Origin: Fibrobacter succinogenes
GTDB taxonomy: Bacteria > Fibrobacterota > Fibrobacteria > Fibrobacterales > Fibrobacteraceae
NCBI GenBank assembly: GCA_902756345.1
Contig: CACVQR010000016.1
Location: forward strand, 1 to 64,000
Direction: 5' to 3'
DNA length: 64,000 nucleotides
Every line of letters begins with the position of its first letter. The first letter of the stretch is position 1. The notes beneath the pieces are model-generated. The model saw only the letters and a program-made list of their open reading frames with translations, was not told where the DNA came from and ran no database searches. Below, piece after piece: positions 5,449 through 58,739 of the stretch. A program made the translations under genes and the position numbers.

Positions 5449-5481
5449 AAGAAACCTCACGAAAAATCCACACCAGTAAAA

Positions 5482-5545
5482 AAAATACCTTTTGCCATCA
5501 AAAAAAGAACTCCCTTTTCGGGAGTTCTCGTTGACAAGTTGTCAA
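5482..5545 (-). promoter_or_regulatory. 15-bp operator and -10 hexamer for the GH141-like gene
   Basis: Reading toward the gene, TTGACAACTTGTCAA (5531-5545) is followed after 43 bp by TATTTT (5482-5487); the ATG is 33 bp further on. The upstream gene's terminator lies between the two elements. This is one of ten matching sites in the window. Confidence 0.75.
5500..5527 (-). terminator. Terminator of the GH5 gene
   Basis: Perfect stem GAACTCCC/GGGAGTTC (5507-5514 with 5520-5527), loop of 5, then a T run on the minus strand. It lies inside the promoter of the next gene, between operator and -10. Confidence 0.88.
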
Positions 5546-7218: not shown

Positions 7219-7259
7219 AAGAACACCTTCCTTTTCCACCTTTCAAACAACCTGATTAT

Positions 7260-7323
7260 AAATTACCTTTTGGGCACAAAAAAAAGAACCCCCTAAAAGG
7301 AGATTCTATTGACATAATGTCAA
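7260..7323 (-). promoter_or_regulatory. 15-bp operator and -10 hexamer for the GH5 gene
   Basis: Oriented to the gene: TTGACATTATGTCAA (7309-7323), 43 bp, TAATTT (7260-7265). The slime gene's terminator lies between the two. Confidence 0.78.
7278..7306 (-). terminator. Terminator of the fibro-slime gene
   Basis: An imperfect hairpin, AGAATCTCCT/AGGGGGTTCT on the minus strand, is followed by a long T run. It lies 24 bp beyond the stop of the fibro-slime gene. Confidence 0.8.
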
Positions 7324-14004: not shown

Positions 14005-15828
14005 TTACTTGATGCGGTGTCCCGTCAAGTCAAAGCGCTTGCCGTTCTTCTCGATGAACATCACATTGCCCTTCTTGAGGAGTCGCGGAGAATTGGTGTT
14101 GCGCACTGCCGCGGGAATTGACTTGTGCAAGCCCGTGGTATTGCAGGTTTCGCCTTCACAGAACTCGATCCAGTCGATATCCATCCAGTCGCCGGTAACC
14201 GTAAAGCGGAGAATGTGTTCGCCTTCGGTCAGGCTGACCTTGGCTTCGACCGTATTGTATTCGTCGTAGTTGTCTTCGCCGGCAGTGGCTGCAGGCACAG
14301 CGATTTCTTCGGTAATATCCTTGCCGTCCATAGAGAGCTTAAAGCTTGACGTACTGTTGGCAGAGGCAACGGAGGCGTTCATGGCGTAAGTTCCGGTCTT
14401 TGCCACCTTCACGGTGTATTCAAGCCATTCGCCCGCCTGGTTATAACCGACAATGATGCCAGACGCCTTCTTGTAAAGATCCACGCCTGTACCCGGGCGG
14501 TAGTCAGAATCACCGTGATTTTCGGTATCGCTTTCGTTGTAGGTGGTGTTGCCCTGGCCTACGCCGTTAATGTCAAAGTCTTCCACTTCGATCTTGCCCG
14601 GAATGGCGAGAGCTTCGCCCTTGAACGGAGCGCGCGGAACCGGCTTTAAAACCAAGCGGAGGAGTGCCGAGCCGTGAGCAGGAAGTTCGATAGAAACGTG
14701 CGAAAGCGGGCCCAGATCCTTCTTTTTCCAGGCATCGCGAACTTCCACTTCGCCTTCTACGCCAATGTCTGCAAAGTTGCATTCCACAGTCTGAGTAGAG
14801 TTGTTGTTATTGAGGAGTGCCACGGCAAGGTCGCCATTCTTCAAGGGCTTGGTCCAAACCTGCTTACCCTGCTTGTCAGAGATGCGGTGGCCCTGAACGC
14901 CCAGGGAATCCTGGTTGATGGCAATCATGTCCTTGTTCAGGTAGAGTTCCTTAGTCTCGTTACTCATGCTGCGCACGTCAGAACTGATCATGATGGGAGC
15001 GGCCATAATAGACCACATCGTCATCTGGGAGCGTTGTTCTTCGTAAGAGAGGCCCCTGTTGCCCACTTCGAGCATGTCCGGGTCATTCCAGTGGCCGGGT
15101 TTTGCAATCTGCCAGTACTTGTTGTTGGCATCGATAATTTCGTAGACGCCGCGGTACCAGGAGGTAGAAATCCATTCGGGGCCAATGTCGAAAGTGGTAC
15201 GCCAGAGGTTGGCGATTTTCGGCATCCACTCCTTGTATTCCCACATGCAAATGCTGAACACGATGTCGCGTCCGGAATTGCGGAGGGCCTTGGACATGGC
15301 GGTGTAATCTTTTTCCTGGGTATTCGGGTCAGAATCGCAGTTGTCGTACTTCCAGTAGTCAACGCCCCATTCGGCGAGTTTCTTAGCATCCTGTTCTTCG
15401 TGACCGTTGGAACCGCTCTGGCTATCCCATTTGCTGTTGTAATGGTGGCAAGTACGTTTGCCGCGGTCGCCGTAAAGGCCGAACTTAAGGCCCTTCGCAT
15501 GCACGTAATCGGCAATGGCCTTCATGCCACTCGGGAAGGTTTTCGGATTATTCTGGAGGTTACCCTGGGCATCGCGCTTGGTATCCATCCAGTTGTCGTC
15601 GAGGTTCAGGTAAATGTAGCCCGCGTCCTTCAAGCCAGAAGACACCATGGCATCGGCGATTTCCTGAATCTGTTTTTCGTTGATGTTTTCGTGGAATACG
15701 TTCCAGCTGTTCCACCCCAGCGGGGGTGTAAGCACCAAACTATCGGGATGCGCAAAGGCCTGAGAGGCCAAACCACAAAAAGCAAGGGCGATAGCCCCGC
15801 CGAACGAGTATTTTTTTAAGCCAAACAT
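14005..15828 (-). CDS. Secreted GH27 alpha-galactosidase with CBM6
   Basis: This 607-residue enzyme of clan GH-D has a signal peptide (about 1-26), then the GH27 signature TPPLGWNSWN. The nucleophile is D162 in WKYDNCDSD and the acid/base is D251 in WNDPDML. A beta-domain follows to about 400, then a CBM6 (about 409-557) and the short tail ending KRFDLTGHRIK as in the GH5 enzyme. It would remove alpha-galactose (or, in some relatives, beta-L-arabinopyranose) side chains. The start at 15828 (MFGLKK) has GGAG 8 nt upstream; ATG and GTG codons 6 and 9 nt earlier lie too near that site. It is monocistronic with its own operator. Confidence 0.92.
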   Translation of the reverse strand: MFGLKKYSFGGAIALAFCGLASQAFAHPDSLVLTPPLGWNSWNVFHENINEKQIQEIADAMVSSGLKDAGYIYLNLDDNWMDTKRDAQGNLQNNPKTFPSGMKAIADYVHAKGLKFGLYGDRGKRTCHHYNSKWDSQSGSNGHEEQDAKKLAEWGVDYWKYDNCDSDPNTQEKDYTAMSKALRNSGRDIVFSICMWEYKEWMPKIANLWRTTFDIGPEWISTSWYRGVYEIIDANNKYWQIAKPGHWNDPDMLEVGNRGLSYEEQRSQMTMWSIMAAPIMISSDVRSMSNETKELYLNKDMIAINQDSLGVQGHRISDKQGKQVWTKPLKNGDLAVALLNNNNSTQTVECNFADIGVEGEVEVRDAWKKKDLGPLSHVSIELPAHGSALLRLVLKPVPRAPFKGEALAIPGKIEVEDFDINGVGQGNTTYNESDTENHGDSDYRPGTGVDLYKKASGIIVGYNQAGEWLEYTVKVAKTGTYAMNASVASANSTSSFKLSMDGKDITEEIAVPAATAGEDNYDEYNTVEAKVSLTEGEHILRFTVTGDWMDIDWIEFCEGETCNTTGLHKSIPAAVRNTNSPRLLKKGNVMFIEKNGKRFDLTGHRIK

Positions 15829-15861
15829 CTTCATCACTCCATGATGATATTTACACCTAAA

Positions 15862-15925
15862 AAAATATTCTTAAAAAAAGGGAAAACTCACCCAGAAAAG
15901 CAAAACGGCGTTGACTATTTGTCAA
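15862..15925 (-). promoter_or_regulatory. 15-bp operator and -10 hexamer for the GH27 gene
   Basis: Oriented: TTGACAAATAGTCAA (15911-15925), 43 bp, TATTTT (15862-15867). Here the palindrome also sits in the loop of a longer inverted repeat, AACGGC/GCCGTT, that may serve as the terminator of the CE1 gene. Confidence 0.77.
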
Positions 15926-17518: not shown

Positions 17519-19843
17519 TTACTTCGTTACCGTAAAGCGACGAACCATCCCATTCTTCGCTCTAATCAGGTACACGCCCTTTTCCGAAACCATGGCGCGA
17601 ACTTTAGACTGAGCCTCGCTTGCACTTGTCGCAAACACGGAGCCCACAAAGTTTCCGTTCAGGCCATACACGCGGTAAACCTGTTCGGCCTGCACATCGT
17701 AGCGCACTGCATTTGCGATACCCGTCGGATCAATCGGTTCCGGGTCCGTAGCGTTTGCGCCCTTCACGAATGTGAAGTAGTCAATATCGAGCCAAGCGCC
17801 AGTAACCGTAAAGCGGAGCACATGTTCGCCAGCAGGGAGCGTTACATTGGCCTTCACCTTGTTGTAATCGTCGTAATTCTCTTCGCCGGAGCTTGCTGCC
17901 GGCACCGCGATTTCTTCGGTAATGTCCTTGCCATCCAAGGAGAGCTTGAAGCTCGAGGTAGAGCCAGCCGCAGCAACAGCCGCGAACATGGTGTAATCAC
18001 CTGCATCCTTTACGTTCACGGTGTATTCGAGCCAGTCGCCTTCGCTGTTGTAGCCCACAATGACGCCGGTCGCCTTCTTGTAAAGGTCAACGCCCGTGCC
18101 CTTGCGGTAATCGCTATCGCCGTGGTTTTCGGAATCGGCGTCATAGTAAGAGGTGCCATCTTTACCCTTGCCCGGAACGTCGAAGTTTTCTGCTTCGATC
18201 TTGCCCGGGAGCGCAACGGCAGGGCAATTTTCACCAGCAGCGCAGAACGGAGTCTGCGGAACAGGTTCAGAGCCAGCGCCATCGAGATAAATTTCATCGT
18301 TCACGTCGGTACCGACCTTGAACCAGTCAAAGTCTGCGTAACCACCGGCCTGCTTGGTCGCAAAGTTGAAGAGGCCCCAACGCACGCCCACGAACATGTG
18401 CAAGTCGTAATTGAGCTTTACGTCGCTACCAATCTTTGTCCAGGTATTGCCATCGGTACTGTAATAGAAGTATGCGGTACCGCGGTCAATCGGCAAGTCA
18501 AAATCGATACGCAAGTAAACCTTGGAACCCGAAATCGCCTTGCTATCCTTCAGGCTTTCACCATTCTTGTTTCCGGTGTACATCACCACCTTGTAGCTAC
18601 CGCCATCTTTAGCGAGCGCCACAAAGCCCTTGTCGTCCTGCAGGGCAACGAGGCCAGCCATATCGCCATCCTTCATGCCGGTGCCATCCACAAGCGTACG
18701 GCCAGAGCACTTGGGGCCAAAAGAGCGCTGGGTCAAGGTGTTCTTCGCATTCACCACTCGACTATCAGTGCGGCTCGTAGTAATGCGGTAGAAGCCCGGA
18801 TTTGCAGACAAGCTCCAGTTCTTGTTATCGGGGTTATGGTTGAACTGCCATTCGAGAGCAAGTTCGCTAGATTCAAAGTCATCAGAAGTCACCATGCCGT
18901 AGCCCGGCAGCGGAGATTCCGGCAAGTCAATTGTAGAGGGGGCCTTGGAGCCGCTCGTGGGCACGGGCCAGCCGTCTTTCCATTCCATCGGAACCAAGTG
19001 CGACATACGGCCAACCGGGCCGGAATCGCGGAACAAAAGTGCATACCACTTGCCATCGGGAGTATCAAAGATGCCACCCTGCGCCACACCGTTGTCAGAA
19101 AGGAAGTACCTTCCGCTGTAACCAGAGAGCAAGTTCTTGGAACGGTAAACAATTTCACTGCGGCTCTTGCCAGCCGGCCAAGAAATCGTAAACAGGTAGT
19201 ATTCGCCGTTCACCTTTTCCATGTGCGAGCCTTCTTGCTGCACATAGTAATTGCTGGTGCCGGTCACCTGGTTCACGCTCACGCCGCCAACCTTACCGCT
19301 CTTGCCGCCAGCCTTCACGCCGCTAGCGTCATCGTTCAACTGCACGTAGCTAATCTGGTCGCCGCTACCGTAGAACACCCAAACGGTGCCGTCGTCATCG
19401 AAGAAGAGGGAGGGGTCATGATAGAACGGGAGCTGCACTTCGCTCCACTGGCCGCTTTCCACGTCGGCGGTCTTGTACAAATGCGTCTTGCCTGTCGTGT
19501 AGGACGGGGTCAGCACGTAGAAAAACCCCTTGTGATAACGAATGCTCGATGCCCAGGAACCCTTACCGTAGGCGTCCTTGCCGCCATTCAGGTTTTGCTG
19601 GTCATTGTTGGTGAGCGTCTGGTAAGCATACCCCACCGTGCGCCACTGGGCCAAATCCGTGCTCTTGAAAACGGGCACGCCCGGGGCAAAGTGCATGGTC
19701 GTCGTCACCATGTAATAGGCGTCGTCAACACGGACAATCGAGGGGTCCGGGCTATCGACGTACATAATCGGATTGTTGACTGTTACAGCGTAAACTGCAC
19801 AAGAACTAGCGAGGGCAATGCCCAAACTTTTAAACCATCCCAT
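17519..19843 (-). CDS. Secreted GH43 xylosidase/arabinofuranosidase with CBM6
   Basis: This 774-residue enzyme has a GH43 five-blade propeller with the expected acids: D33 in SPDPSIV, D143 in YHDPSLFFDDDG and E204 in QQEGSHMEK. A concanavalin-like C2 domain (about 325-525) follows, as in beta-xylosidase-type GH43 subfamilies. Next come a CBM6 (about 544-691) and a sorting-like tail (VYGLNGNFVGSV to GVYLIRAKNG). A hydrophobic N-terminus serves as signal peptide. The start at 19843 (MGWFKS) has AGGAG upstream; a longer in-frame start lacks one. It is first in the operon with the CE1 gene, which couples removal of ester groups to removal of pentose side chains. Confidence 0.88.
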   Translation of the reverse strand: MGWFKSLGIALASSCAVYAVTVNNPIMYVDSPDPSIVRVDDAYYMVTTTMHFAPGVPVFKSTDLAQWRTVGYAYQTLTNNDQQNLNGGKDAYGKGSWASSIRYHKGFFYVLTPSYTTGKTHLYKTADVESGQWSEVQLPFYHDPSLFFDDDGTVWVFYGSGDQISYVQLNDDASGVKAGGKSGKVGGVSVNQVTGTSNYYVQQEGSHMEKVNGEYYLFTISWPAGKSRSEIVYRSKNLLSGYSGRYFLSDNGVAQGGIFDTPDGKWYALLFRDSGPVGRMSHLVPMEWKDGWPVPTSGSKAPSTIDLPESPLPGYGMVTSDDFESSELALEWQFNHNPDNKNWSLSANPGFYRITTSRTDSRVVNAKNTLTQRSFGPKCSGRTLVDGTGMKDGDMAGLVALQDDKGFVALAKDGGSYKVVMYTGNKNGESLKDSKAISGSKVYLRIDFDLPIDRGTAYFYYSTDGNTWTKIGSDVKLNYDLHMFVGVRWGLFNFATKQAGGYADFDWFKVGTDVNDEIYLDGAGSEPVPQTPFCAAGENCPAVALPGKIEAENFDVPGKGKDGTSYYDADSENHGDSDYRKGTGVDLYKKATGVIVGYNSEGDWLEYTVNVKDAGDYTMFAAVAAAGSTSSFKLSLDGKDITEEIAVPAASSGEENYDDYNKVKANVTLPAGEHVLRFTVTGAWLDIDYFTFVKGANATDPEPIDPTGIANAVRYDVQAEQVYRVYGLNGNFVGSVFATSASEAQSKVRAMVSEKGVYLIRAKNGMVRRFTVTK

Positions 19844-19896
19844 GTTAGTACTCCTTTTGTGGGCGCACCACCGCCCATGCAAATTTCTTCATCATA

Positions 19897-19960
19897 AAAT
19901 TACCCTAAAAAAACCAAAAAAAGCCTATTCACACCCCATAATCCTTTGACAAATTGTCAA
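19897..19960 (-). promoter_or_regulatory. 15-bp operator and -10 hexamer for the GH43-CE1 operon
   Basis: Oriented: TTGACAATTTGTCAA (19946-19960, perfect apart from its centre), 43 bp, TAATTT (19897-19902) within AGGGTAATTTTA. The same decamer core GGGTAATTTT recurs at the CE6 and second GH43 promoters. Confidence 0.8.
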
Positions 19961-20034: not shown

Positions 20035-20118
20035 CTAACCGTAAAGGAATCCGAGCACGACCGCGACTACCGAGAAGAACGCAATCTGCTTGACAATTGT
20101 AATTTCATTACTTTTCAT
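20035..20118 (-). CDS. Putative 27-residue membrane peptide downstream of CE6 esterase
   Basis: A 28-codon frame starts with an ATG inside the last codons of the CE6 gene (overlap ATGAAAAGTAA) and ends before the terminator, so it lies within the same transcript. It begins MKSNEITIVKQ and continues with a wholly hydrophobic stretch, IAFFSVVAVVLGFLYG, the length of one membrane helix. GGTGGTGA precedes the ATG by 3 nt, and the overlap suggests translational coupling. No function is recognised. It is too short for statistical support, so the call rests on position, start overlap and hydrophobicity. Confidence 0.45.
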   Translation of the reverse strand: MKSNEITIVKQIAFFSVVAVVLGFLYG

Positions 20119-21781
20119 AGGTCACCACCTTTTGCTTAATGCCCATCTTGCCGGCAGAGCGAACCAAATACACTCCCCGACGGATACCCTTGACACCTTC
20201 CTTGATCATGCGGACTGCAGCATCCATGCCAGAGGCCTTGAAGCTTGCCACATGCTTGCCCTGCATATCGAACAGGTTAAAATTGCTTTCGGCTTCGGTC
20301 ATGCTCAGGCGAATCGCATCAATCCCGCTCGGAGGCTCGTCACTCTGGACTGCCTTGAATTCAATATTGTCGATATCGATCCAGTCGCCTACGATTTCGA
20401 GTTTCAGCTCGTGCTCGCCCGCCTTCAGGCTAGCCTTGCCGCCGCTCACCGTCGTAAAGCTGGTAAAGCCCTTGCCTTCGCTCACGATCTTTTCTCCGAT
20501 GCGGGTATCGTCCATATACAGCTCGAAGCCGCCCGTCGTATTGTCGCTAGCCACAAGCGCAGAAATTTCGTATTCGCCATCGGCTTCCACCTTCACGGTG
20601 TACTTGAGCCATTCGCCCTTCTGGCAGTGGCCAACGACTAGGCCCATGTTCGGCTGGTAAATGTCCACGTCGTTCTTGCGGAACTTGCCGCCTTCGTTGC
20701 CCTTGCTCAAATCGTAGTAGCCCTTGTCGGCACCACCCTTGTTGTATTCTTCGACTTCAATGGTACCCGGAATCTTTGCCGGCGCTTCGCCATACGGGCC
20801 ATATTCCTCAGGCGGCTCGTCCGGAACGGTTGACTGACTCGGGTCAACCAAGTTCACTTCCGGAGCATCCGGGTCAATCGTCTTGTCGATCAACTTGAGC
20901 ATTTCGGAACAGTAACGCTTGCCGAGTTCAATCACGCCTTCACGGCCAAAGTGGTAGGGGTCCTTGCCGTTACCCTTCAGCCCCTGGGAAGATGCCAGAC
21001 CGAACTTCTTGAACTTGCTCTTCAGCTGGGCAATACCGCCGTTCTTGCTGCTGCAGCAGCTGCCCTGGCCGGAGTTACCCGTGGGGTCGTTCATCATTTC
21101 GCCGGCAACAAACGGGACTTCGTTTTCGTCCAGTTCAAGAGCGTTTACAATGTCCTTGTAGGTCTTGTATACATTGTTCTGCCATTCGGTACCAGATCCA
21201 TCGGTTTCGCCCTGGTGGAAAATAAAGCCCTTGATGACGCCCACTTCCTTAGCCTTCTTGCCCAGGTCCACAATTCTCTGGTAAGGGTTGGAATCATAGT
21301 CTTTCGCCCAGTTCTGGATATAACTTGCCGCAGAACTGAAGTAGGCCCGGTACTGGTCCTTGTCAAAAGCCTTGATGCTCACCGCACCGATAGCGACCGG
21401 GATAATGCCCACGGTAACACCCGGCAGGGAATCAACCATGGCGCGGCCGAAGTAGTCCGCCGGGGAAAGATTTTCGAAGGGGTGGAACATCGGCGGGATT
21501 GCCGGGTACCATTCGCCCGTCTTGATAGACTGATTCGTCTTGCCGCTACGCTGGCTTGCATTGGCGTTGTGCGAAGCGAGCATAAGGAAATTCTTGGGAT
21601 TCGTGGCCTGGTCCACGGAAGGCACGATTTCGCCGTTACCGGCCATGTTCGACTGGCCGTAAGCGATATAAATATGGAAATTGGGGTTCGGCGCCGCACT
21701 GGCAAGCGACGCAAGCATCATGAGCCCGCCGACAAGCCACAGGGCCGGGGTCAAAAATTCAGAGACTTTTTTAAGGTCCAT
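20108..21781 (-). CDS. axe6: Secreted CE6 acetyl xylan esterase with CBM6
   Basis: This 557-residue protein has a signal peptide (about 1-29) and then an SGNH/SASA hydrolase domain of carbohydrate esterase family 6. The nucleophile is S44 in YGQSNMAG, the catalytic pair is D274-x-x-H277 in DPYHFGREG, and HQGE (189-192) is the family's third block. A CBM6 lies at about 335-477 and a sorting-like tail follows (LFDMQGKHVASF to GVYLVRSAGK). The order CE6-CBM6-tail is that of F. succinogenes Axe6B. The start at 21781 follows AGGAGT. It would deacetylate xylan, opening it to the GH30 and GH43 enzymes next door. Confidence 0.92.
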   Translation of the reverse strand: MDLKKVSEFLTPALWLVGGLMMLASLASAAPNPNFHIYIAYGQSNMAGNGEIVPSVDQATNPKNFLMLASHNANASQRSGKTNQSIKTGEWYPAIPPMFHPFENLSPADYFGRAMVDSLPGVTVGIIPVAIGAVSIKAFDKDQYRAYFSSAASYIQNWAKDYDSNPYQRIVDLGKKAKEVGVIKGFIFHQGETDGSGTEWQNNVYKTYKDIVNALELDENEVPFVAGEMMNDPTGNSGQGSCCSSKNGGIAQLKSKFKKFGLASSQGLKGNGKDPYHFGREGVIELGKRYCSEMLKLIDKTIDPDAPEVNLVDPSQSTVPDEPPEEYGPYGEAPAKIPGTIEVEEYNKGGADKGYYDLSKGNEGGKFRKNDVDIYQPNMGLVVGHCQKGEWLKYTVKVEADGEYEISALVASDNTTGGFELYMDDTRIGEKIVSEGKGFTSFTTVSGGKASLKAGEHELKLEIVGDWIDIDNIEFKAVQSDEPPSGIDAIRLSMTEAESNFNLFDMQGKHVASFKASGMDAAVRMIKEGVKGIRRGVYLVRSAGKMGIKQKVVTYEK

Positions 21782-21806
21782 AACACACTCCTTATGCAAT
21801 ACCCTA

Positions 21807-21870
21807 AAATTACCCTCAAAAAACGACCAAATCACGCTAAAAACGCCAAAATTTATGGATAAATAGTCAA
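21807..21870 (-). promoter_or_regulatory. 15-bp operator and -10 hexamer for the CE6 gene
   Basis: Oriented: TTGACTATTTATCCA (21856-21870), 43 bp, TAATTT (21807-21812) within GAGGGTAATTTTAG. Confidence 0.77.
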
Positions 21871-21895
21871 CAAAAGGTAATGAAAAATAAACAAG

Positions 21896-21919
21896 AAACC
21901 CGCCTAAAAAGGCGGGTTT
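21896..21919 (-). terminator. Terminator of the GH30 gene
   Basis: Perfect stem AAACCCGCC/GGCGGGTTT (21896-21904 with 21911-21919), followed by a T-rich stretch on the minus strand. Confidence 0.9.
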
Positions 21920-21951
21920 CAGCATTCAAATCTTAAAACCGTCCAAAAAGA

Positions 21952-24174: not shown

Positions 24175-26433
24175 CTATTTGGTAGTACGCACCTTTGCAA
24201 TCATGCCGTTTGCGCGATTACGAATCAGGCATATTCCCTGAGCCTTTTCGCTACCCTTAATGGAACCGTTCTGCCACATCTTAGACGCTTCAGTCATGTT
24301 GCGGGCCGTAAAGCTTGCCACCTTCTTGCCCGTCAAATCGAACACGTCAAAGCTTGCGGTAGAAGCGCTTGCAAGTTTCACGCCCTTGATTGCCGTCGTA
24401 CCTTCGAGCGGGTCGGAATCAGCGGCATCCTTGCCTGCAACAAAGTTGATGTAATCGATATCCATCCAGTCGCCGGTGACGGTAAAGCGGAGGATATGTT
24501 CGCCCGCCGGGAGCGTTACGTTCGCCTTGACCTTGTTGTAGTCATCAAAGTTTTCTTCGCCGTCATTCTTAGGCACAGCAATTTCTTCGGTGATGTTCTT
24601 GTCGTCAATCGAAAGCTGGAATCCGGAGGTCGCATTGGCAGACGCCACGGCGGCATACATGGTGTAGTCACCAGCTTCCTTCACGTTCACGGTGTATTCG
24701 AGCCATTCGCCGGCCTGGTTGTAGCCCACGACATAGCCAGTCGCCTTCTTGTAGATATCGACACCGGTGCCTTCGCGATAGCTCTTGCCGCCATTGCTTT
24801 CGGCGCCATGGTCGTCGGAATCGTTGTCGCTATAGGAATCGACTCCAGCGCCGCGGCCTGTACCCGGTTCGTCAAAGTTTTCCATTTCAATCTTGCCCGG
24901 AATTTCCCAAGCCTTGCCGCCAAAGGGTTTCTGCGGTTCCGGCGGCGTCGTGCCGCTGCCTTCGAAGCCCCAAGCCTTCACGTACATGGTCGAATCCTGA
25001 TTGCCCTTGAACACGAGGAACAGCTGGTTCACAATGCCCTTGAGGCCAGAAACTTCGCACTTGTTTTCGGCATAAGTGTTCTTGCTGCCGGTATTCTTCA
25101 AGGTACAAGTGCCTGCGAGCGTTCCCGATGCAGAACCCGTGCGGATTTCAATCTTGTTGCCGTCGGCAGCACTCGAAGCCTCGACCGTAAAGCCCGTTGC
25201 CGCAGTACCGAAATCCACGCCAGAAACGCGAATCCAGGATTCCTTGCTCGAAAGCGGAATCAGCACATGTTCAGCCCTCTTGCCCACGACAAAGTTGGAG
25301 CGGCTGCGAATGCCCTTCTGCTTGGAGCTCGTGAGAGCCGGATACCAGTCGTACGGATCGAAGTTTTCAATCTGCTTCGGGCCTTCGTTGGTGCAAACCA
25401 CCTGCTTAATCGTACCGTCGGCGTTGTAGAACATTTCGTCTACGGAAACGCTGCGGTGGTAGCCTTCGTTCGGTTTCGGCTGACCATCATCTGCCGGAAT
25501 AATTTCCAGGCCGTTGTGGCCCTTCGCGATACGGCGGTCATGGTAAACCACGTAGGAGTGGCCCTTGAATTCGGCAATACCATGGTGATTGTTGTTGCCG
25601 TTAATGCTACGACCATTCATGCTCGGGTCGCCAAGAATGGTGCCCTTCCAGGTGTACGGGCCCATCACATTGTTGGACATGCCGTAGTCAATGGTAGGCG
25701 CACCCTGCTGCCAGCCAGTACTGTAAGAGAAGTAGTAAGTACCCTTGTGTTTGTGGATGTAAGACGCTTCGAGCATCTTGCGGGTCGGCAGGTTGTTCAC
25801 CTTCACGTGGCTGCCGTTACCCACCGGAGCATTCTTCGCGTCGTTCAACTTGACGATATCGAAGTTATCGGTATTCGGGCGGCTGTTGCTTTCGCCACCA
25901 CCCCACGTCACGTAGGTCGTACCGTCGTCATCGATAAAGATACCCGGGTCAAAGCACCACGAAACGCCATCGCAGCCAATAATGCCGCGGCCGCCGACCA
26001 GTTTGTCCTTGCCGTTACCCACGGCGTTTGTCCACGGGCCGTCGATTGCAGGCGCCTTGATGTAGCCAATGCCGCCGCCACCGCCATCGGGGAACACGAT
26101 GTAGAACGTGCCGTTATGCACCGCAATACCGGATGCCCAAATGTCGTTAATGCCGTTCACCTTGCGGGCATCGTAAATAATGCCGTAGTCAGTCCAGTTC
26201 TGCATATCCTTACTGCGGAATGCATAGAGGGCGTAAATCTTGTAACCGTTAGAATTGTACGGAGCCGGGTCATCGGAGTCCGTGATGATATAGAAGTACT
26301 CATCGTCAGCGGCAGCACCCGGGTCTGCCAGGTAATGGTAAGTAGAAATCGGGTTGTCGGCAAGGCCGAAAGACGCCAAGCCCATGACCAAACACGCGGC
26401 CTTCTTCAGGCCTTTCACATTCCAAACATCCAT
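24175..26433 (-). CDS. Secreted arabinoxylan-type GH43 with two CBM6 domains (copy A)
   Basis: This 752-residue enzyme has the GH43 acids D37 (LADPGAA), D162 (CFDPGIFIDDDG) and E222 (LEASYIHK). It resembles arabinoxylan arabinofuranohydrolases. A first CBM6 (about 375-500, SGVDFGTAATGFTV to LFLVFKG) follows the propeller directly, and a second CBM6 spans about 506-664. The tail reads FDVFDLTGKKVASFTARN. The N-terminus GLKKAACLVMGLASFGLA is the signal peptide. Its catalytic domain and first CBM6 are closely related to those of the next upstream gene, but its second CBM6 is more like those of the GH27, GH43-CE1 and GH30 enzymes, suggesting module exchange. Confidence 0.9.
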   Translation of the reverse strand: MDVWNVKGLKKAACLVMGLASFGLADNPISTYHYLADPGAAADDEYFYIITDSDDPAPYNSNGYKIYALYAFRSKDMQNWTDYGIIYDARKVNGINDIWASGIAVHNGTFYIVFPDGGGGGIGYIKAPAIDGPWTNAVGNGKDKLVGGRGIIGCDGVSWCFDPGIFIDDDGTTYVTWGGGESNSRPNTDNFDIVKLNDAKNAPVGNGSHVKVNNLPTRKMLEASYIHKHKGTYYFSYSTGWQQGAPTIDYGMSNNVMGPYTWKGTILGDPSMNGRSINGNNNHHGIAEFKGHSYVVYHDRRIAKGHNGLEIIPADDGQPKPNEGYHRSVSVDEMFYNADGTIKQVVCTNEGPKQIENFDPYDWYPALTSSKQKGIRSRSNFVVGKRAEHVLIPLSSKESWIRVSGVDFGTAATGFTVEASSAADGNKIEIRTGSASGTLAGTCTLKNTGSKNTYAENKCEVSGLKGIVNQLFLVFKGNQDSTMYVKAWGFEGSGTTPPEPQKPFGGKAWEIPGKIEMENFDEPGTGRGAGVDSYSDNDSDDHGAESNGGKSYREGTGVDIYKKATGYVVGYNQAGEWLEYTVNVKEAGDYTMYAAVASANATSGFQLSIDDKNITEEIAVPKNDGEENFDDYNKVKANVTLPAGEHILRFTVTGDWMDIDYINFVAGKDAADSDPLEGTTAIKGVKLASASTASFDVFDLTGKKVASFTARNMTEASKMWQNGSIKGSEKAQGICLIRNRANGMIAKVRTTK

Positions 26434-26476: not shown

Positions 26477-26540
26477 AAACTATCTTCATAAGCACAAAAA
26501 AAAGTGCCCCGGAGGACACTTTTCTTTGACTTTTTGTCAA
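26477..26540 (-). promoter_or_regulatory. 15-bp operator and -10 hexamer for GH43 copy A
   Basis: Oriented: TTGACAAAAAGTCAA (26526-26540), 43 bp, TAGTTT (26477-26482). It is the weakest hexamer of the set but lies at the same position. Confidence 0.72.
26495..26523 (-). terminator. Terminator of GH43 copy B
   Basis: Imperfect stem AAGTGTCC/GGGCACTT on the minus strand, followed by a long T run. It lies between the operator and the -10 of the next gene. Confidence 0.82.
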
Positions 26541-26559: not shown

Positions 26560-28788
26560 TTACTTCGCAGTGCGGATTTTGGAGACCATTCCGGTGGTAC
26601 GGTTGCGGATCAGGTTCACGCCGCGGGCCTTTTCAGAACCCTTCACGGAACCGTCACGCCACATCTTAGTGGCTTCAACCATGTTGCGGGCCGTAAAGCT
26701 TGCGAGCTTCTTGCCGCTCAGGTCGAACACGTCGTACTGGGCAACCTTGGAGGCGTTCAGCTTGACATCCTGATGGATACCCGTGGTCACTTCGCCAATC
26801 GAGAACCAGTCCACATTCACGTTGTCGCCGGTAATCACCAGTCGGACAATGTGTTCGCCCTTGGTCAGGGTCGCCTTGCCGGCATCGAATTCTTCGTAGA
26901 CGCTCCAGTCTTCGCCAGTCTGCGAAACCTTCACGGTATCGCCCACAGCCTTACCATCGACAAGCAGGCAGAAGCCTGCGCCGTTTTCCATACCGGTAGA
27001 AGCCGATGCCTTCAAAGCGTATTCGCCATCTTCTGGAACCACGATCGAGTATTCCAGCCATTCACCAGCAGCGGTGTAACCAATAGCCTTGCCGGTACCA
27101 CCGAGCACGATATCGACTCCCAAGTCGGTACGGAATTCGGCATCGCCCTGGTTTTCGGACTCGTTGTCGCTATAGGATTGCGCTTCTTCACCGCGGCCCG
27201 TGCCCGGAACGTCATAGTTTTCGGCTTCAATCTTGGCCGGAATCGTCACGGCCTTGTCGCCATAAGGAGTCTGCGGAGTCGGCGGAGTAGAGCCGCTTCC
27301 TTCGAAGCCCCAAGCCTTGATTGCCATGGTCGAATCCTGCGAGCCCTTGAACACGAGGAACAAGGATTCCACGATACCCTTCAGGCCTTCCACTTCGCAC
27401 TTGGTTTCAGCAAAGGTAGACTTGTTGCCGGTATTCTTGAGCGTGCATGTGCCCGCCAAGGAACCGCTTGCAGAACCGGTATGGATTTCAATCTTGTTGC
27501 CGTCGGCAGTGCTTGCTGCCTGCACGGTAAAGCCAGTGGCTGCCGTACCGAAGTCAACACCCGACACGCGAATCCAGGATTCCTTCGTGGAAAGCGGGAG
27601 CAGCAGGTGCTCAGCGACCTTGCCCGGGCTCCAGTTGGAACGGCTACGGATGCCCTTCTGCTTGGAACTCGTGAGAGCCGGGTACCAGTCGTACGGATCG
27701 AAGTTCTCAATCTGCTTCGGGCCTTCCTTCGTGAAGGTCAGTTCCTTCATGGTGCCATCGCCATTGTAATAGAATTCATCGACACTCACGCTGCGGTGGA
27801 ATGCCGGTACCGGATTCGCCTTGCCGTCATCGGCAGGAATCTTTTCGAGGCCGTCGTAACCGTTTGCAATGCGGCGGTCATGGTATGCCACATACCAATG
27901 GCCCTTGAATTCGGCAATGCCATGGTGGTTGTTGTTGTTCGCATTGATGTTCTGGCCGTTGATGTTCGGGTTGCCCATGAAGATACCCTTGTATTCATAA
28001 GGGCCCATCGGGTTCTTGGACATACCGTAGGCAATGCGCAAGTCAGCCGTACTGTAAGACAGGTAGTAATTGCCTTTGTACTTGTGGATGTAAGAAGCTT
28101 CCATCGCCTTCGGGCCACCAATCTTCAGGTGAGTCTTGGTGCTCACATCGAAGCCCTTCATGTCCTTGTTGAGCTTGTAGATGTTGAAAATGTCGTTGTT
28201 GTTGTTATTTGCCGGGCGGCTATCGCTGCTGCCGCCACCAAACGTGAAGTAGCCCGTACCGTCGTCATCGAAGAAGATTGCCGGGTCAAAACACCAGCCG
28301 ATGCCGTCGCAGTCCGAAATACCGCCGCCCCAGTTGTTGATGAGCTTCTTGTTGCCCGAAACAGGGTTCGTCCAGGGGCCAGCAATGCTGTCGGCGCCGA
28401 TGAGGCCAATGCCGCCACCACCGCCATCGGGGAACACGATGTAAAGCCTGTGATCGTTGGGGTTCACTGCAATGCCGGATGCCCAGATATCGCCGATACC
28501 GTCAACCTTGCGGGCATCGTAGATAATGCCGAAGTCGGTCCAGTTCTTCATGTCCTTGGTGCGGAAACCGTAGAGGGCCTTGATGTTGTAGCCGTTGGCA
28601 TTGGCTGCCGCCGGGTCGTCAGAGTCGGTAATGACGTAGAAGTAGGTGTCATCGGCAGCGGCACCCGGGTCTGCCAAGTAGTGATAACTCGAAATCGGGT
28701 TGTCGGCCAAGCCAAAAGCGGCAAGCCCGGCAACTAAGCACGCAGCCTTTTTCAGGCTCGTCAATTCCCATACTTTTCTGTAATCCAT
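26560..28788 (-). CDS. Secreted arabinoxylan-type GH43 with two CBM6 domains (copy B)
   Basis: This 742-residue paralogue of copy A has the same order: signal peptide (SLKKAACLVAGLAAFGLA), GH43 propeller with LADPGAA, CFDPAIFFDDDG and MEASYIHK supplying the three catalytic acids, first CBM6 (about 380-500), second CBM6 (about 506-666) and a sorting-like tail (YDVFDLSGKKLASFTARN). The second CBM6 (AENYDVPGTGRGEEAQ to NVDWFSIGE) resembles those of the GH5 and GH141-like enzymes rather than copy A's. The likely activity is removal of arabinose from arabinoxylan; the exact regiospecificity cannot be read by eye. It has its own operator and terminator. Confidence 0.9.
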   Translation of the reverse strand: MDYRKVWELTSLKKAACLVAGLAAFGLADNPISSYHYLADPGAAADDTYFYVITDSDDPAAANANGYNIKALYGFRTKDMKNWTDFGIIYDARKVDGIGDIWASGIAVNPNDHRLYIVFPDGGGGGIGLIGADSIAGPWTNPVSGNKKLINNWGGGISDCDGIGWCFDPAIFFDDDGTGYFTFGGGSSDSRPANNNNNDIFNIYKLNKDMKGFDVSTKTHLKIGGPKAMEASYIHKYKGNYYLSYSTADLRIAYGMSKNPMGPYEYKGIFMGNPNINGQNINANNNNHHGIAEFKGHWYVAYHDRRIANGYDGLEKIPADDGKANPVPAFHRSVSVDEFYYNGDGTMKELTFTKEGPKQIENFDPYDWYPALTSSKQKGIRSRSNWSPGKVAEHLLLPLSTKESWIRVSGVDFGTAATGFTVQAASTADGNKIEIHTGSASGSLAGTCTLKNTGNKSTFAETKCEVEGLKGIVESLFLVFKGSQDSTMAIKAWGFEGSGSTPPTPQTPYGDKAVTIPAKIEAENYDVPGTGRGEEAQSYSDNESENQGDAEFRTDLGVDIVLGGTGKAIGYTAAGEWLEYSIVVPEDGEYALKASASTGMENGAGFCLLVDGKAVGDTVKVSQTGEDWSVYEEFDAGKATLTKGEHIVRLVITGDNVNVDWFSIGEVTTGIHQDVKLNASKVAQYDVFDLSGKKLASFTARNMVEATKMWRDGSVKGSEKARGVNLIRNRTTGMVSKIRTAK

Positions 28789-28833: not shown

Positions 28834-28897
28834 AAATTACCCTCAGAAACACAAAAAAAAGTGTCCCGGAGGACACTTTCCATTGACATTTTATCCA
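28834..28897 (-). promoter_or_regulatory. 15-bp operator and -10 hexamer for GH43 copy B
   Basis: Oriented: TGGATAAAATGTCAA (28883-28897), 43 bp, TAATTT (28834-28839) within GAGGGTAATTTTGG. Confidence 0.78.
28852..28879 (-). terminator. Terminator of the regulator-lipoprotein operon
   Basis: Stem AAAGTGTCC/GGACACTTT with loop TCCG on the minus strand, followed by a T run. It overlaps the promoter of GH43 copy B. Confidence 0.85.
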
Positions 28898-28909: not shown

Positions 28910-30232
28910 CTATTCAAGATTCTTGACACCGTAAATCGTGATGTCGTCGAGCCACATTTCGTAAGGAGTCCCTTCCGTAACGCCACCACCGAAGAAGTTC
29001 AGGTTCGTCACGTGTTCCTTGACGGCATCCCAACCGATGTTGCCACCGATATTGTGTTCGTCAGGTTCAATCAAGTCTTTCGGAGTCACCACGAAACGCT
29101 GCCAGGTGGTATCAAGTTCCAAGTGCACCCAAGCCTTACCGTTTTCGTAACCGGTAGAATCGAGAGCAATCGAATCGAGAAGCACATCGAACGAGACGCT
29201 GATCCACTGGGAAGAATCGCTGAGTCCAGAACGAGCCCAGAACACCACTGAATCAAGCTCACTCATATCAGTCATTTCGTTCAAGGCGCGTCCCATCAAG
29301 GCCCAGTTGGCGTTGGAATCGTTCTGGTACACGAAGTGGGCAACCATGCCTTTACGGCCAGCCACGTTCTTTTCGGCATCCAGTTGTGCCTCGGCATACT
29401 TGGACCTAGAAATATACCAGCCATAAGTGCTGTCTTCAAAGTCGGCAAAAAGCACAACCGGGTAGACATCTTCCTTGACCATCGTATCGGAAGCGGGCAC
29501 CTGCTTCTGACCAATCGTCACGTTCTTCGAGGTCTTGCCGGACTCCACCTTCGTATTGCTGGAGCCGACCGTCATCAGGTTGCTGATCGCCGACGGCTTG
29601 CCGTCCATATCGAGAGTCTTGTAAGTACGGAACGTGAATCCGACCAGGGTAAGCAATCCCTTCGGCAGGCTCTTAAATTCAAACTTGCCCTCTTCGTCCG
29701 TTTCAACAAAGTAATCAAGTCCCTTGACGCCCACCGTCACGGACGATTCGTTTTCAGGCAAGTACACCTGGCCCGAAACAGCGCCAGTCGGTTCAAGCTT
29801 GATCGACACAGAATCACGGGACACATCGGTCACCACCACGCGCACAAACGCCTTGGTAGTATCCTGACGTGCTTCCACATTATAAGTACCAGGTTTGAGT
29901 CTCTTGAGGTTCAACCGGCCCTGCTCGTCGGTTTCAAGATTCAAGATGCCCAAAGTAGAATCGGATACGACCACCGGGGATTCCCCCTTTTTGTGGTCCT
30001 TGACAACATCCATATTATTCGCACCCGCCAAGAAGTCGACCGGGCGCACCAAGACCTTGGTACGGGCAGCAGGCGAACCATCGCTCTGCTTCACAGCGAG
30101 CACCACGGCAACCGAGTTCTCTGTCTCAAGCGACGTTCCCGCACTCGGATCAATGCCGTTGCTACTGGAACACGCCGCAATGAGCGCTCCCACTGCAGCT
30201 GCAAAACCTATATGCCACACCCATTTCTTCAT
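28910..30232 (-). CDS. Surface lipoprotein with CBM11/CIA30-like domain
   Basis: This 440-residue lipoprotein has a lipobox ending at C21 (ALIAACSSS). Two carboxypeptidase-regulatory or SpaA-like beta-sandwiches follow (about 40-150 and 150-215, e.g. TDEQGRLNLKRLKPGTYNVEA and TDEEGKFEFKSLPKG). The C-terminal domain (about 262-440, FADFEDSTYGWY to LDDITIYG) resembles CBM11/CIA30 galactose-binding folds. It overlaps the upstream TIGR02147-type regulator by 4 bp (ATGA), so the two are translationally coupled. The pairing suggests that the lipoprotein senses or binds polysaccharide at the cell surface and reports to, or is co-controlled with, the regulator. That role is an inference. Confidence 0.8.
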   Translation of the reverse strand: MKKWVWHIGFAAAVGALIAACSSSNGIDPSAGTSLETENSVAVVLAVKQSDGSPAARTKVLVRPVDFLAGANNMDVVKDHKKGESPVVVSDSTLGILNLETDEQGRLNLKRLKPGTYNVEARQDTTKAFVRVVVTDVSRDSVSIKLEPTGAVSGQVYLPENESSVTVGVKGLDYFVETDEEGKFEFKSLPKGLLTLVGFTFRTYKTLDMDGKPSAISNLMTVGSSNTKVESGKTSKNVTIGQKQVPASDTMVKEDVYPVVLFADFEDSTYGWYISRSKYAEAQLDAEKNVAGRKGMVAHFVYQNDSNANWALMGRALNEMTDMSELDSVVFWARSGLSDSSQWISVSFDVLLDSIALDSTGYENGKAWVHLELDTTWQRFVVTPKDLIEPDEHNIGGNIGWDAVKEHVTNLNFFGGGVTEGTPYEMWLDDITIYGVKNLE

Positions 30233-31092
30233 TTGGACTCCCTTTTGTCGCCCTCCACAGAATCAACGGTACGGACACCGCCCTTACGCGCAATCGGATA
30301 AAACGCCATAGAAAGCTGCATTACCCGGTCGGAGTTTTTGGCACTGTCCACCCTCTTCTGGACCAGACGCCTAAATTCCCTAAGCATATCACCCAAGTCA
30401 TCGAAGCAGGACTGGTCTACGGACAATGTAAGAGTAGAAATATTTCTTTCGTCAACAGGAATATTGTCCAGTGCATCACTAGCCAAAGAGAGCACTTCTT
30501 TCTGGAAATGACGAACAGCCTGCTTCTTTTCGGGGCCACCCACGGTCAAATGGGCGTCCGTAACAGCCAACTTGCCCGAAGCCATCTTCTTGACCAAGCC
30601 GACTTCCAGCAAGGTATCGATCGCTTCCTGGGCCTGGGCCTCGGTAATCGGGGGGCACAGGTCCCTAGAAATCTGCTTGACGTTAACCACGCCACCGTTC
30701 AGTTCGAGGTAGGCACGCACGGCCGGAATCCACCAGTTCTGAAGCAGCTTGAGTTCGGCTGCCTGCAGGCTGTGGCGGTCCACATCCCGAAGATCGAGGG
30801 CTTTTGCCATCAGCTCTTCGCGCTTGGCCTTGTCCTTGGTTACTGCTGCGGAGAACAGCAAGTCAAAGTATTCGGCCTCACGACCGGACAGATCAAGGAT
30901 TTCTTTCGCGGCAGGGAGTGCATGAGCCGGCAAGTGCTGCTTTTTCTGCAACACGCGATAAAGGTAGCTGGAATCCAACCCCAGCTTGTCCCCCATCATA
31001 CGGTACGAGTAGAAAGGCATTTCGGCTTTCCTACGGTCGTAGTACTCCTTCAAGAAGTCGCGATAATCCGATATGTCAGAAAACGTAACCAT
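30229..31092 (-). CDS. TIGR02147-type (Fibrobacter paralogous) regulator
   Basis: This 287-residue protein of the TIGR02147/DUF4423 family, a large paralogous family in Fibrobacter, has an N-terminal helix-turn-helix (about 25-55, with DKLGLDSSYLYRVLQKKQ) that looks like a lambda-type DNA-binding domain. A helical middle and a winged-helix-like segment (about 140-190) follow. No signal peptide is present. The gene heads an operon with the CBM11-like lipoprotein and stands at the upstream end of the hemicellulase island. Its own promoter carries the same 15-bp palindrome as the enzyme genes, plus a CRP-type palindrome, which makes it the best local candidate for the island's regulator. Confidence 0.82.
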   Translation of the reverse strand: MVTFSDISDYRDFLKEYYDRRKAEMPFYSYRMMGDKLGLDSSYLYRVLQKKQHLPAHALPAAKEILDLSGREAEYFDLLFSAAVTKDKAKREELMAKALDLRDVDRHSLQAAELKLLQNWWIPAVRAYLELNGGVVNVKQISRDLCPPITEAQAQEAIDTLLEVGLVKKMASGKLAVTDAHLTVGGPEKKQAVRHFQKEVLSLASDALDNIPVDERNISTLTLSVDQSCFDDLGDMLREFRRLVQKRVDSAKNSDRVMQLSMAFYPIARKGGVRTVDSVEGDKRESK

Positions 31093-31120
31093 AATTATTT
31101 ACCCGTATATTTACAATAAT

Positions 31121-31184
31121 AAAATAGACTTTGCAGGTAAAGAAACATATACCGAGGGTGAAATTCGCATGGACGTTTTATCCA
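31121..31184 (-). promoter_or_regulatory. 15-bp operator and -10 hexamer for the TIGR02147 regulator gene
   Basis: Oriented: TGGATAAAACGTCCA (31170-31184), 43 bp, TATTTT (31121-31126). It shows the same architecture as the hemicellulase promoters and implies shared control or autoregulation. Confidence 0.75.
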
Positions 31185-31191
31185 AGTGCAT

Positions 31192-31207
31192 TGTGACACT
31201 GGTCACA
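31192..31207. promoter_or_regulatory. CRP-like palindrome
   Basis: TGTGACACTGGTCACA is a perfect TGTGA-N6-TCACA site. It lies 7 bp upstream of the 15-bp operator of the regulator gene, centred about 85 bp before that gene's expected transcription start. No CRP-family gene is in the window. Confidence 0.55.
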
Positions 31208-31269
31208 AAAAGGCCAAAATGGGGCAAATTCCCCAAAAAAAGGAATTTAGGCTTTTGCCAACTCACAAA

Positions 31270-31314
31270 TTGCAAATCATTCGCAATTTTACTATATTTG
31301 CGAATCGTTCGCAA
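31270..31314 (+). promoter_or_regulatory. Zinc-operon promoter with two Fur/Zur-type palindromes
   Basis: Two 17-bp palindromes, TTGCAAATCATTCGCAA (31270-31286) and TTGCGAATCGTTCGCAA (31298-31314), begin 28 bp apart. A promoter fits between and over them: -35 TTGCAA (31270-31275), 17 bp, -10 TATATT (31293-31298, in TATATTTG). Occupation of either site would block transcription, so the downstream Fur-family protein probably represses its own operon. Confidence 0.72.
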
Positions 31315-31328
31315 TTTCGGCGTTGAAA

Positions 31329-31721
31329 ATGGAATACAAAACTCAGACCCGACAGATGATCATGGATTACATGGCTGAAAATCCCGACCGGATTTTCAAG
31401 GCCTCCGAGTTGGCCCAGAGTCTGTCCGAGGTTTCGCTGAGTACCATTTACAGGAACCTTTCCAGGCTCGAAAAAGCAGGAATGATCCAGATTGTCGGAG
31501 CTGCCGAAAACAACGAGTTGCAATACCGCTACACGGGCCCAGGCCAATGCGAAGAAAAGATGCACCTCGTATGCAAGGAATGCGGCAAGTTTTTCCACCT
31601 GGAAGGCCCCGCCCTCAAGGTTCTGCAGCTTTCGGTACAGCGCAGCGGATTCGAGCTGGACCAACAACAGTCCGTGCTGCTCGGGCGCTGTTCCGGCTGT
31701 TCGCGGAGGCGCCATGGTTAA
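31329..31721 (+). CDS. zur: Fur-family metal regulator, probably Zur
   Basis: This 130-residue Fur-family repressor has an N-terminal winged helix (LSEVSLSTIYRNLSRLEKAG) and two CxxC pairs (CKEC about residue 84 and CSGC near the C-terminus) for the structural zinc. H and E residues after CKECGKFFHLE probably bind regulatory metal. It is the first gene of an operon with a His/Cys-rich small protein and a znuACB zinc importer, so zinc is the likely signal; Fur or Mur identity cannot be excluded by sequence reading. The ATG at 31329 gives normal family length, although an in-frame TTG lies 6 nt upstream. It is preceded by two palindromic operators. Confidence 0.82.
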   Translation: MEYKTQTRQMIMDYMAENPDRIFKASELAQSLSEVSLSTIYRNLSRLEKAGMIQIVGAAENNELQYRYTGPGQCEEKMHLVCKECGKFFHLEGPALKVLQLSVQRSGFELDQQQSVLLGRCSGCSRRRHG

Positions 31722-56867: not shown

Positions 56868-56931
56868 TGGACAGTTTGTCAATGAGCCCTTTGCTTTTTT
56901 CGGAACAATACATCCCGCGGAATATATTTTA
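56868..56931 (+). promoter_or_regulatory. 15-bp operator and -10 hexamer for CE1 esterase A
   Basis: TGGACAGTTTGTCAA (56868-56882) is followed by TATTTT at 56925-56930, a 42-bp gap (one base shorter than the other nine sites). The gene's ATG is 49 bp further on. Confidence 0.72.
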
Positions 56932-56979
56932 AGGGCAATGAGGCTTAAAGAGTGTATTTGGGCCAAAAAAGGAGTAAGT

Positions 56980-58645: not shown

Positions 58646-58709
58646 TAGATAAATCGTCCATAAGCAAGGCGATTCTCCATGTAATATTTATCACATTTCA
58701 GATTAATTT
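58646..58709 (+). promoter_or_regulatory. 15-bp operator and -10 hexamer for CE1 esterase B
   Basis: TAGATAAATCGTCCA (58646-58660), 43 bp, TAATTT (58704-58709). It matches the regulator gene's site (TGGATAAAACGTCCA) at 13 of 15 positions. Confidence 0.7.
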
Positions 58710-58739
58710 ATAAGAAGGTCTGGTGAAAAAGGAGTCATG

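Follow-up and report, generated by a model that had tools for sequence, protein, structure and literature searches.

The window analyzed here, 64,000 nucleotides of DNA from the gut fiber degrader Fibrobacter succinogenes, covers the opening 64 kb of a contig that is 84.8 kb long. Near its middle, a regulator gene of the TIGR02147 family and a lipoprotein gene lie on the reverse strand, behind a promoter with an operator and a CRP-like box whose end, at position 31207, is the right edge of the feature studied. The genes and sites at this locus are as follows.

28910..30232, minus strand: lipoprotein partner gene (440 aa), with lipobox Cys21, an ETEN motif, and a CBM11-like C-terminal domain
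30229..30232, minus strand: ATGA start/stop overlap (4 bp) of the regulator and lipoprotein genes, common to most orthologs
30229..31092, minus strand: TIGR02147/DUF4423 regulator gene (287 aa), assigned by family profile matches; proposed to activate the regulon as well as its own gene
31121..31126, minus strand: -10-like TATTTT for the regulator gene, assigned by its distance of 43 bp to the operator
31170..31184, minus strand: operator TGGATAAAACGTCCA in the regulator's own promoter, kept across orthologs, as is its spacing to the -10
31192..31207: CRP-like box TGTGACACTGGTCACA on the upstream side of the operator, at a distance of 7 bp; the box and its helical phasing are conserved in relatives
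31329-31721: divergent Fur-like gene, assigned by Pfam

The 4-bp overlap of the two genes, reported in the first-pass annotation, is the ATGA at 30229-30232, and the lipoprotein gene starts within the last codons of the regulator gene. The regulator scored 194.3 bits against the TIGR02147 model (curated cut-off, 50) and 100.3 bits against the DUF4423 model (cut-off, 30), which makes it a member of both; DUF4423 is its only Pfam domain. TIGR02147 (Fsuc_second)/DUF4423 is a family without a described function, a literature search by family name found no paper on TIGR02147, and relatives of the regulator are nearly all Fibrobacter or Fibrobacteraceae records. We found an ortholog in 76 of the 80 genomes of the genus at an identity of at least 82%, with the next paralog at no more than 48%. 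Premature stops were considered in the orthologs of G007, G015, G047, and G055 and discounted, because a shorter form of 272 aa seems to end naturally at these points. Pfam gave no match to a cNMP-binding domain or Crp-type HTH and none to kinase or receiver domains, so the regulator falls outside both the Crp/Fnr family and the HTCS and two-component regulators. A sequence search of solved structures found no relative, and the predicted model, which is of moderate confidence, had no significant match to any solved structure. PrgX topped the Foldseek list for this model at scores that are not significant (E 0.025, TM 0.18), so we treat the likeness to PrgX as a lead only.

The operator is a 15-bp palindrome, TKGAY-N5-RTCMA. 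At a spacing of 42 to 43 bp and with one variant half-site allowed, 10 promoters in the window qualify, each with a -10-like TANNTT downstream and oriented toward the gene that it serves; the spacing is 43 bp at 9 of the 10 sites. Besides the site at the regulator, these are as follows.

28883..28897, minus strand: operator of the GH43-CBM6 gene 26560-28788, with the -10 at 28834-28839 (composite pattern, Pfam)
26526..26540, minus strand: operator of the GH43-CBM6 gene 24175-26433, with the -10 at 26477-26482 (composite pattern, Pfam)
21856..21870, minus strand: operator of a secreted esterase-like gene, 20108-21925 (composite pattern; assignment from sequence)
19946..19960, minus strand: operator TTGACAATTTGTCAA of the GH43-like gene 17519-19882 (composite pattern)
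15911..15925, minus strand: operator of the alpha-galactosidase-CBM6 gene 14005-15837 (composite pattern)
7309..7323, minus strand: operator of the GH5-CBM6 gene 5557-7239 (composite pattern)
5531..5545, minus strand: operator of the GH141-type-CBM6 gene 2830-5460 (composite pattern)
56868..56882, plus strand: operator of the secreted esterase-like gene 56938-58536, with the -10 at 42 bp (palindrome search)
58646..58660, plus strand: variant operator TAGATAAATCGTCCA of the secreted esterase-like gene 58737-60257, spacing 43 (spacing search)

The longest ORF of the esterase-like gene 20108-21925 starts at 21925, but the true start of this gene (MDLKK...) lies further downstream. These promoters bear out the earlier suggestion that the regulator and the enzyme genes have both the site and its spacing in common, with the -10 hexamer starting 43 bp past the site. 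Relative to the presumed start site, the palindrome is centered at about -63, a position like that of a class-I activator. We rejected a reading of the palindrome as an RNA hairpin or attenuator because it lies upstream of the -10 and at a fixed distance from it; where a terminator-like hairpin separates a site from its promoter, we take it as the end of the preceding gene. Elsewhere in the window (about 130-231), a repeated palindrome, TTTGGAAAATATCCAAA, was seen upstream of a putative ATPase gene (232-1617).

Across the 3.36-Mb genome, exact TTGACANNNTGTCAA has four copies, three of them in the window. Searched for alone with 3 mismatches allowed, the palindrome did no better than chance and was rejected as a predictor of the regulon, being too common. 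Only the composite of palindrome, N43, and TANNTT was specific, because of its -10 spacing, with 17 matches in the genome versus 0 for a reversed-pattern control. Eight of these matches are in the window, six are on contig C19, and C7, C13, and C22 have one each; nearly all precede genes for secreted enzymes, the regulator's own promoter excepted. Predicted targets include GH43, GH5, GH141-type, and alpha-galactosidase enzymes and a secreted esterase-like protein in the window and GH95, GH43, GH2, and GH10 enzymes outside it.

The arrangement leaves a footprint across the genus. The palindrome is found in the regulator's own promoter at 51 of 52 ortholog loci, with one mismatch at the remaining locus, and it stays while flanks and leader lengths differ. 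Among 163 sites that face the regulator or a secreted protein, taken from the 52 ortholog loci and the window, nearly all -10 offsets are within one base of 58 bp, counted from the first base of the palindrome, and a TANNNT -10 lies at exactly this distance in 37/48 regulator and 84/115 enzyme promoters. Well-assembled genomes contain roughly 6 to 22 composite matches each, versus 0 to 2 in the control. The only genomes without composite sites, G027 and G029, are also missing the regulator ortholog, and among genomes at least 90% complete, the single one without the regulator (G029, 99% complete) has no composite sites. A single event in which the whole island was lost may account for both cases. 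Composite sites are present and no ortholog was matched in G006 (65% complete) and G052 (72% complete), where the ortholog probably falls in missing sequence. Absence of the pair from genomes that retain the regulon, which the first-pass annotation had named as fatal to its proposal, was not encountered in any well-assembled genome.

Several paralogs have operators of their own. The closest one (46 to 48% identity) has a related operator, TTGACATTTTTTCAA, at nearly identical spacing; in some relatives, the closest paralog pair (L203, L204, L206) is inside or near the same hemicellulase cluster. A second, more distant paralog has a different inverted repeat, GTTGT-N8-ACAAC, which does not vary among the 24 orthologs whose start could be read. 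It ends 42 bp before the -10, in the same promoter register. As a composite, this repeat has 11 matches in the genome versus 0 in the control, which include the paralog's own promoter and genes for a GH11 xylanase, an esterase, a deacetylase, and other secreted proteins. This repeat and a predicted GH11/esterase regulon were noted at L256 and L254-L264 as a second TIGR02147 pair. A third paralog group has TGTGGAC direct repeats. Three further TIGR02147 groups therefore carry repeats of their own, a point on which the earlier note had suggested a survey, and operator similarity among paralogs tracks the HTH sequence. The simplest account of these sequences is that each TIGR02147 protein would recognize its own operator and activate its own gene. 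We also observed that many TIGR02147 genes (L001-L029) look leaderless, with a TATATT-type -10 that starts 13 nt before the ATG. On comparative evidence, namely, the kept site, the identical spacing, the joint loss of regulator and sites, and the sister operators, the earlier proposal that this regulator controls the island holds up, and it is very probably an autoactivating class-I activator of the hemicellulase gene set.

The regulator promoter appears to receive an additional input. Of 50 regulator promoters, 31 have a TGTGA-N6-TCACA box on the upstream side of the palindrome, where shuffled sequences predict 0.1; the 115 enzyme promoters have none. The distinct gaps between box and palindrome (7, 16, 18, 27, 28, 37, and 48 bp) keep to the turn of the DNA helix. 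The genome encodes two Crp/Fnr proteins, one of which has a CRP-type recognition helix, TTRETVSR, that fits this box. In strain S85, expression of hemicellulase genes increases when cells grow slowly on soluble sugars with no polymer present, and a CRP-like input at the regulator would fit this response to growth rate and soluble sugars; that transcriptome study mentions no regulator (PMC6204037). Such an input would also fit the higher abundance of several GH43 proteins of the S85 gene range on cellulose than on glucose (PMC6851124). From gene content, we infer that the window genes are the S85 range Fisuc_1762 onwards.

The presence of two Crp/Fnr proteins, together with a position at -63 that is typical of class I and a palindromic form that fits the class, could also mean that a Crp/Fnr-family protein, and not the TIGR02147 protein, binds the TTGAC palindrome. 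However, an odd length of 15 bp is unusual for Crp/Fnr palindromes, the CRP-type helix of one of the two proteins fits the separate TGTGA-N6-TCACA box instead, and no TTGAC-type palindrome lies near either Crp/Fnr gene, while the TIGR02147 promoter always carries the site. Sister TIGR02147 genes, moreover, have different repeats, one of them in the same register, a diversity that a single Crp/Fnr protein common to all would leave unexplained, and we consider such a binder improbable. Published views of control point elsewhere: Suen et al. (2011) called how Fibrobacter regulates its fiber-degrading genes unanswered and attributed control of the S85 cluster to two metal-dependent regulators (PMC3079729). 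The presence of the Fur-like gene at 31329-31721 agrees with that proposal. Before this divergent gene, at 31265-31320, lie TTGCGAAT/ATTCGCAA-type repeats, probably the Fur-like gene's own operator. The TTGCGAAT-type repeats differ from the enzyme operator, and most ortholog loci showed no Fur-like gene beside the pair, yet keep the operator; control of the cluster by the Fur-like gene or by metal-dependent regulators is thus very improbable.

The lipoprotein partner has a signal peptide that ends in LIAAC, with Cys21 invariant in 34 aligned sequences, which identifies it as a bacterial lipoprotein. It contains two carboxypeptidase-regulatory-like beta stretches with scores slightly below the Pfam cut-off. 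In the predicted structure, the nearest folds to its C-terminal domain are CBM11, CBM4, and CBM30 modules, with Clostridium thermocellum CBM11 as the best Foldseek match (E=1.8e-8, TM 0.69 over the target) and a TM of up to 0.72 over the target for the CBM11 fold. Pfam CBM models gave no match to the lipoprotein at E<=0.01. Since there is no Pfam CBM match, the CBM11/CIA30-like domain of the first-pass annotation stands at the level of predicted fold and not of sequence model, and we call the protein CBM11-like by fold only, not CBM11. The ETEN motif (residues 36-39) is invariant in the window group and falls in the most conserved octapeptide of the protein, with a mean column identity of 42% elsewhere; the motif region is predicted to be disordered.

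The pairing of regulator and lipoprotein genes is nearly universal. At this locus, the lipoprotein gene is downstream of the regulator in all 52 ortholog loci. Of the 29 TIGR02147 genes in this genome, 28 have a lipoprotein gene no more than a few tens of bases downstream, and the last lies beside a divergent one, so that all 29 are paired. In other families of the phylum, a lipoprotein-like gene follows 26 of 29 readable TIGR02147 genes, and two of the three exceptions belong to genome G087, for which no other TIGR02147 gene is listed. The survey that the earlier note had suggested thus extends the pairing across the phylum; no such pairing was seen in the two non-Fibrobacterota relatives examined. 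In G139, a genome of the same class, a first look gave 88 TIGR02147 candidate places.

The partners also share a motif, loosely AG-x-[ED]-x-x-N, about 5 to 25 residues past the lipobox Cys, which was not seen in the other lipoproteins of a 314-kb sample. Its form differs by group, with GSITTNG/GSETTNG throughout the second group and TEAES in the third. The octapeptide analysis of the second group is circular because its sequences were chosen by motif, and the GSITTNG/GSETTNG finding rests on an unbiased listing. Across paralogs, motif similarity is weakly correlated with regulator similarity (r 0.28, Mantel p 0.004), and no single regulator domain tracks the motif, as all domains correlate similarly. 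With a correlation this weak and no particular domain involved, direct contact between regulator and motif is hypothetical. The approximately 30 pairs in the genome point to a previously undescribed control system, in which the lipoprotein would be a likely sensory partner of the regulator.

These pairs resemble several known systems in part. The SigI-RsgI systems of C. thermocellum are polysaccharide-sensing sigma/anti-sigma pairs, present as multiple paralogous pairs, each with an extracellular partner that has a carbohydrate-binding module and with its own plant-wall-enzyme promoters. The Fibrobacter pairs are likewise multiple and paralogous, with a predicted carbohydrate-binding partner outside the cell and, for each pair, putative promoters of its own. 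In contrast to SigI-RsgI, the regulator would be a soluble DNA-binding activator and the binder is a separate lipoprotein, with no membrane-spanning anti-sigma factor to join them; the pair contains only DUF4423 and lipoprotein, with neither a sigma factor nor a membrane-spanning anti-sigma, and does not belong to that class. Regulators of Bacteroides PULs (HTCS, ECF-sigma/anti-sigma, and SusR) also control polysaccharide-degradation clusters with surface-binding lipoproteins, but HTCS and SusR are single membrane-spanning proteins, and the Fibrobacter system is without SusC/SusD, a sensor kinase, or a sigma domain. Pheromones of PrgX/ComR-type (RRNPP) regulators can derive from lipoprotein signal peptides, as those of PrgX do. 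A lipoprotein-derived ligand is conceivable here as well, and the moderate-confidence model of the regulator similarly shows an HTH and a helical region, with a winged-helix-like segment where RRNPP proteins have TPR repeats.

We consider it likely, from sequence comparison, that the system combines an activating regulator, CRP gating, and a lipoprotein with a sensory or feedback role. The TIGR02147 protein would be a cytoplasmic DNA-binding activator whose dimer binds TKGAY-N5-RTCMA, with the site centered at about -63, and activates its own operon together with no fewer than 16 other promoters, most of which serve secreted enzymes directed at xylan. Just upstream of this site and in helical phase with it, a CRP-type protein would gate the regulator promoter, such that nutritional state reaches the regulator first and then the enzymes. 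The co-translated lipoprotein would display a CBM11-like polysaccharide-binding domain, and the motif beside its lipid anchor would be a likely specificity tag for the cognate regulator. Because the regulator is soluble, it could meet this motif directly only before export or through a returning peptide; the tag would be most economically read on the cytoplasmic precursor or as such a peptide, and the gene overlap would favor contact at synthesis. A signal from lipoprotein to regulator is speculative. In its fullest form, which we hold only tentatively, TIGR02147-lipoprotein pairs would be a new class of transenvelope signaling, with about 30 pairs per genome, in which cognate tag reading selects the enzyme set, so that polysaccharide capture or export traffic at the surface would determine which set is made.

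The lipoprotein might instead be merely a regulated surface binder of a true activator whose signal is internal, such as cAMP-CRP or a metabolite. The CRP-like input at the regulator promoter would suit this, as would a regulator without an evident membrane segment and the rise of S85 hemicellulase genes at slow growth on soluble sugars (PMC6204037). Obligate pairing across 29 paralogs and the phylum, and a partner-only motif that is more conserved than the binding domains, are hard to explain for a mere target, and we rate this account as possible but somewhat doubtful. The motif could also serve as an export or surface-anchoring signal of this lipoprotein class, unrelated to the regulator. 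Its position beside the lipid anchor resembles that of known lipoprotein export signals, and its loose consensus is common across the phylum. Against this, other lipoproteins in the 314-kb sample are without the motif, and it is group specific (ETEN, GSITTNG, TEAES) and weakly covaries with the regulator; we judge an export role possible but rather doubtful. A sensory or feedback partner remains our preferred reading of the lipoprotein.

This work names a regulator, operator, promoter geometry, and predicted regulon for one hemicellulase set of Fibrobacter and a second regulator for a GH11/esterase set. It also provides a first functional hypothesis for the TIGR02147 family, which, in this phylum, may number as many as about 88 candidates in a single genome.
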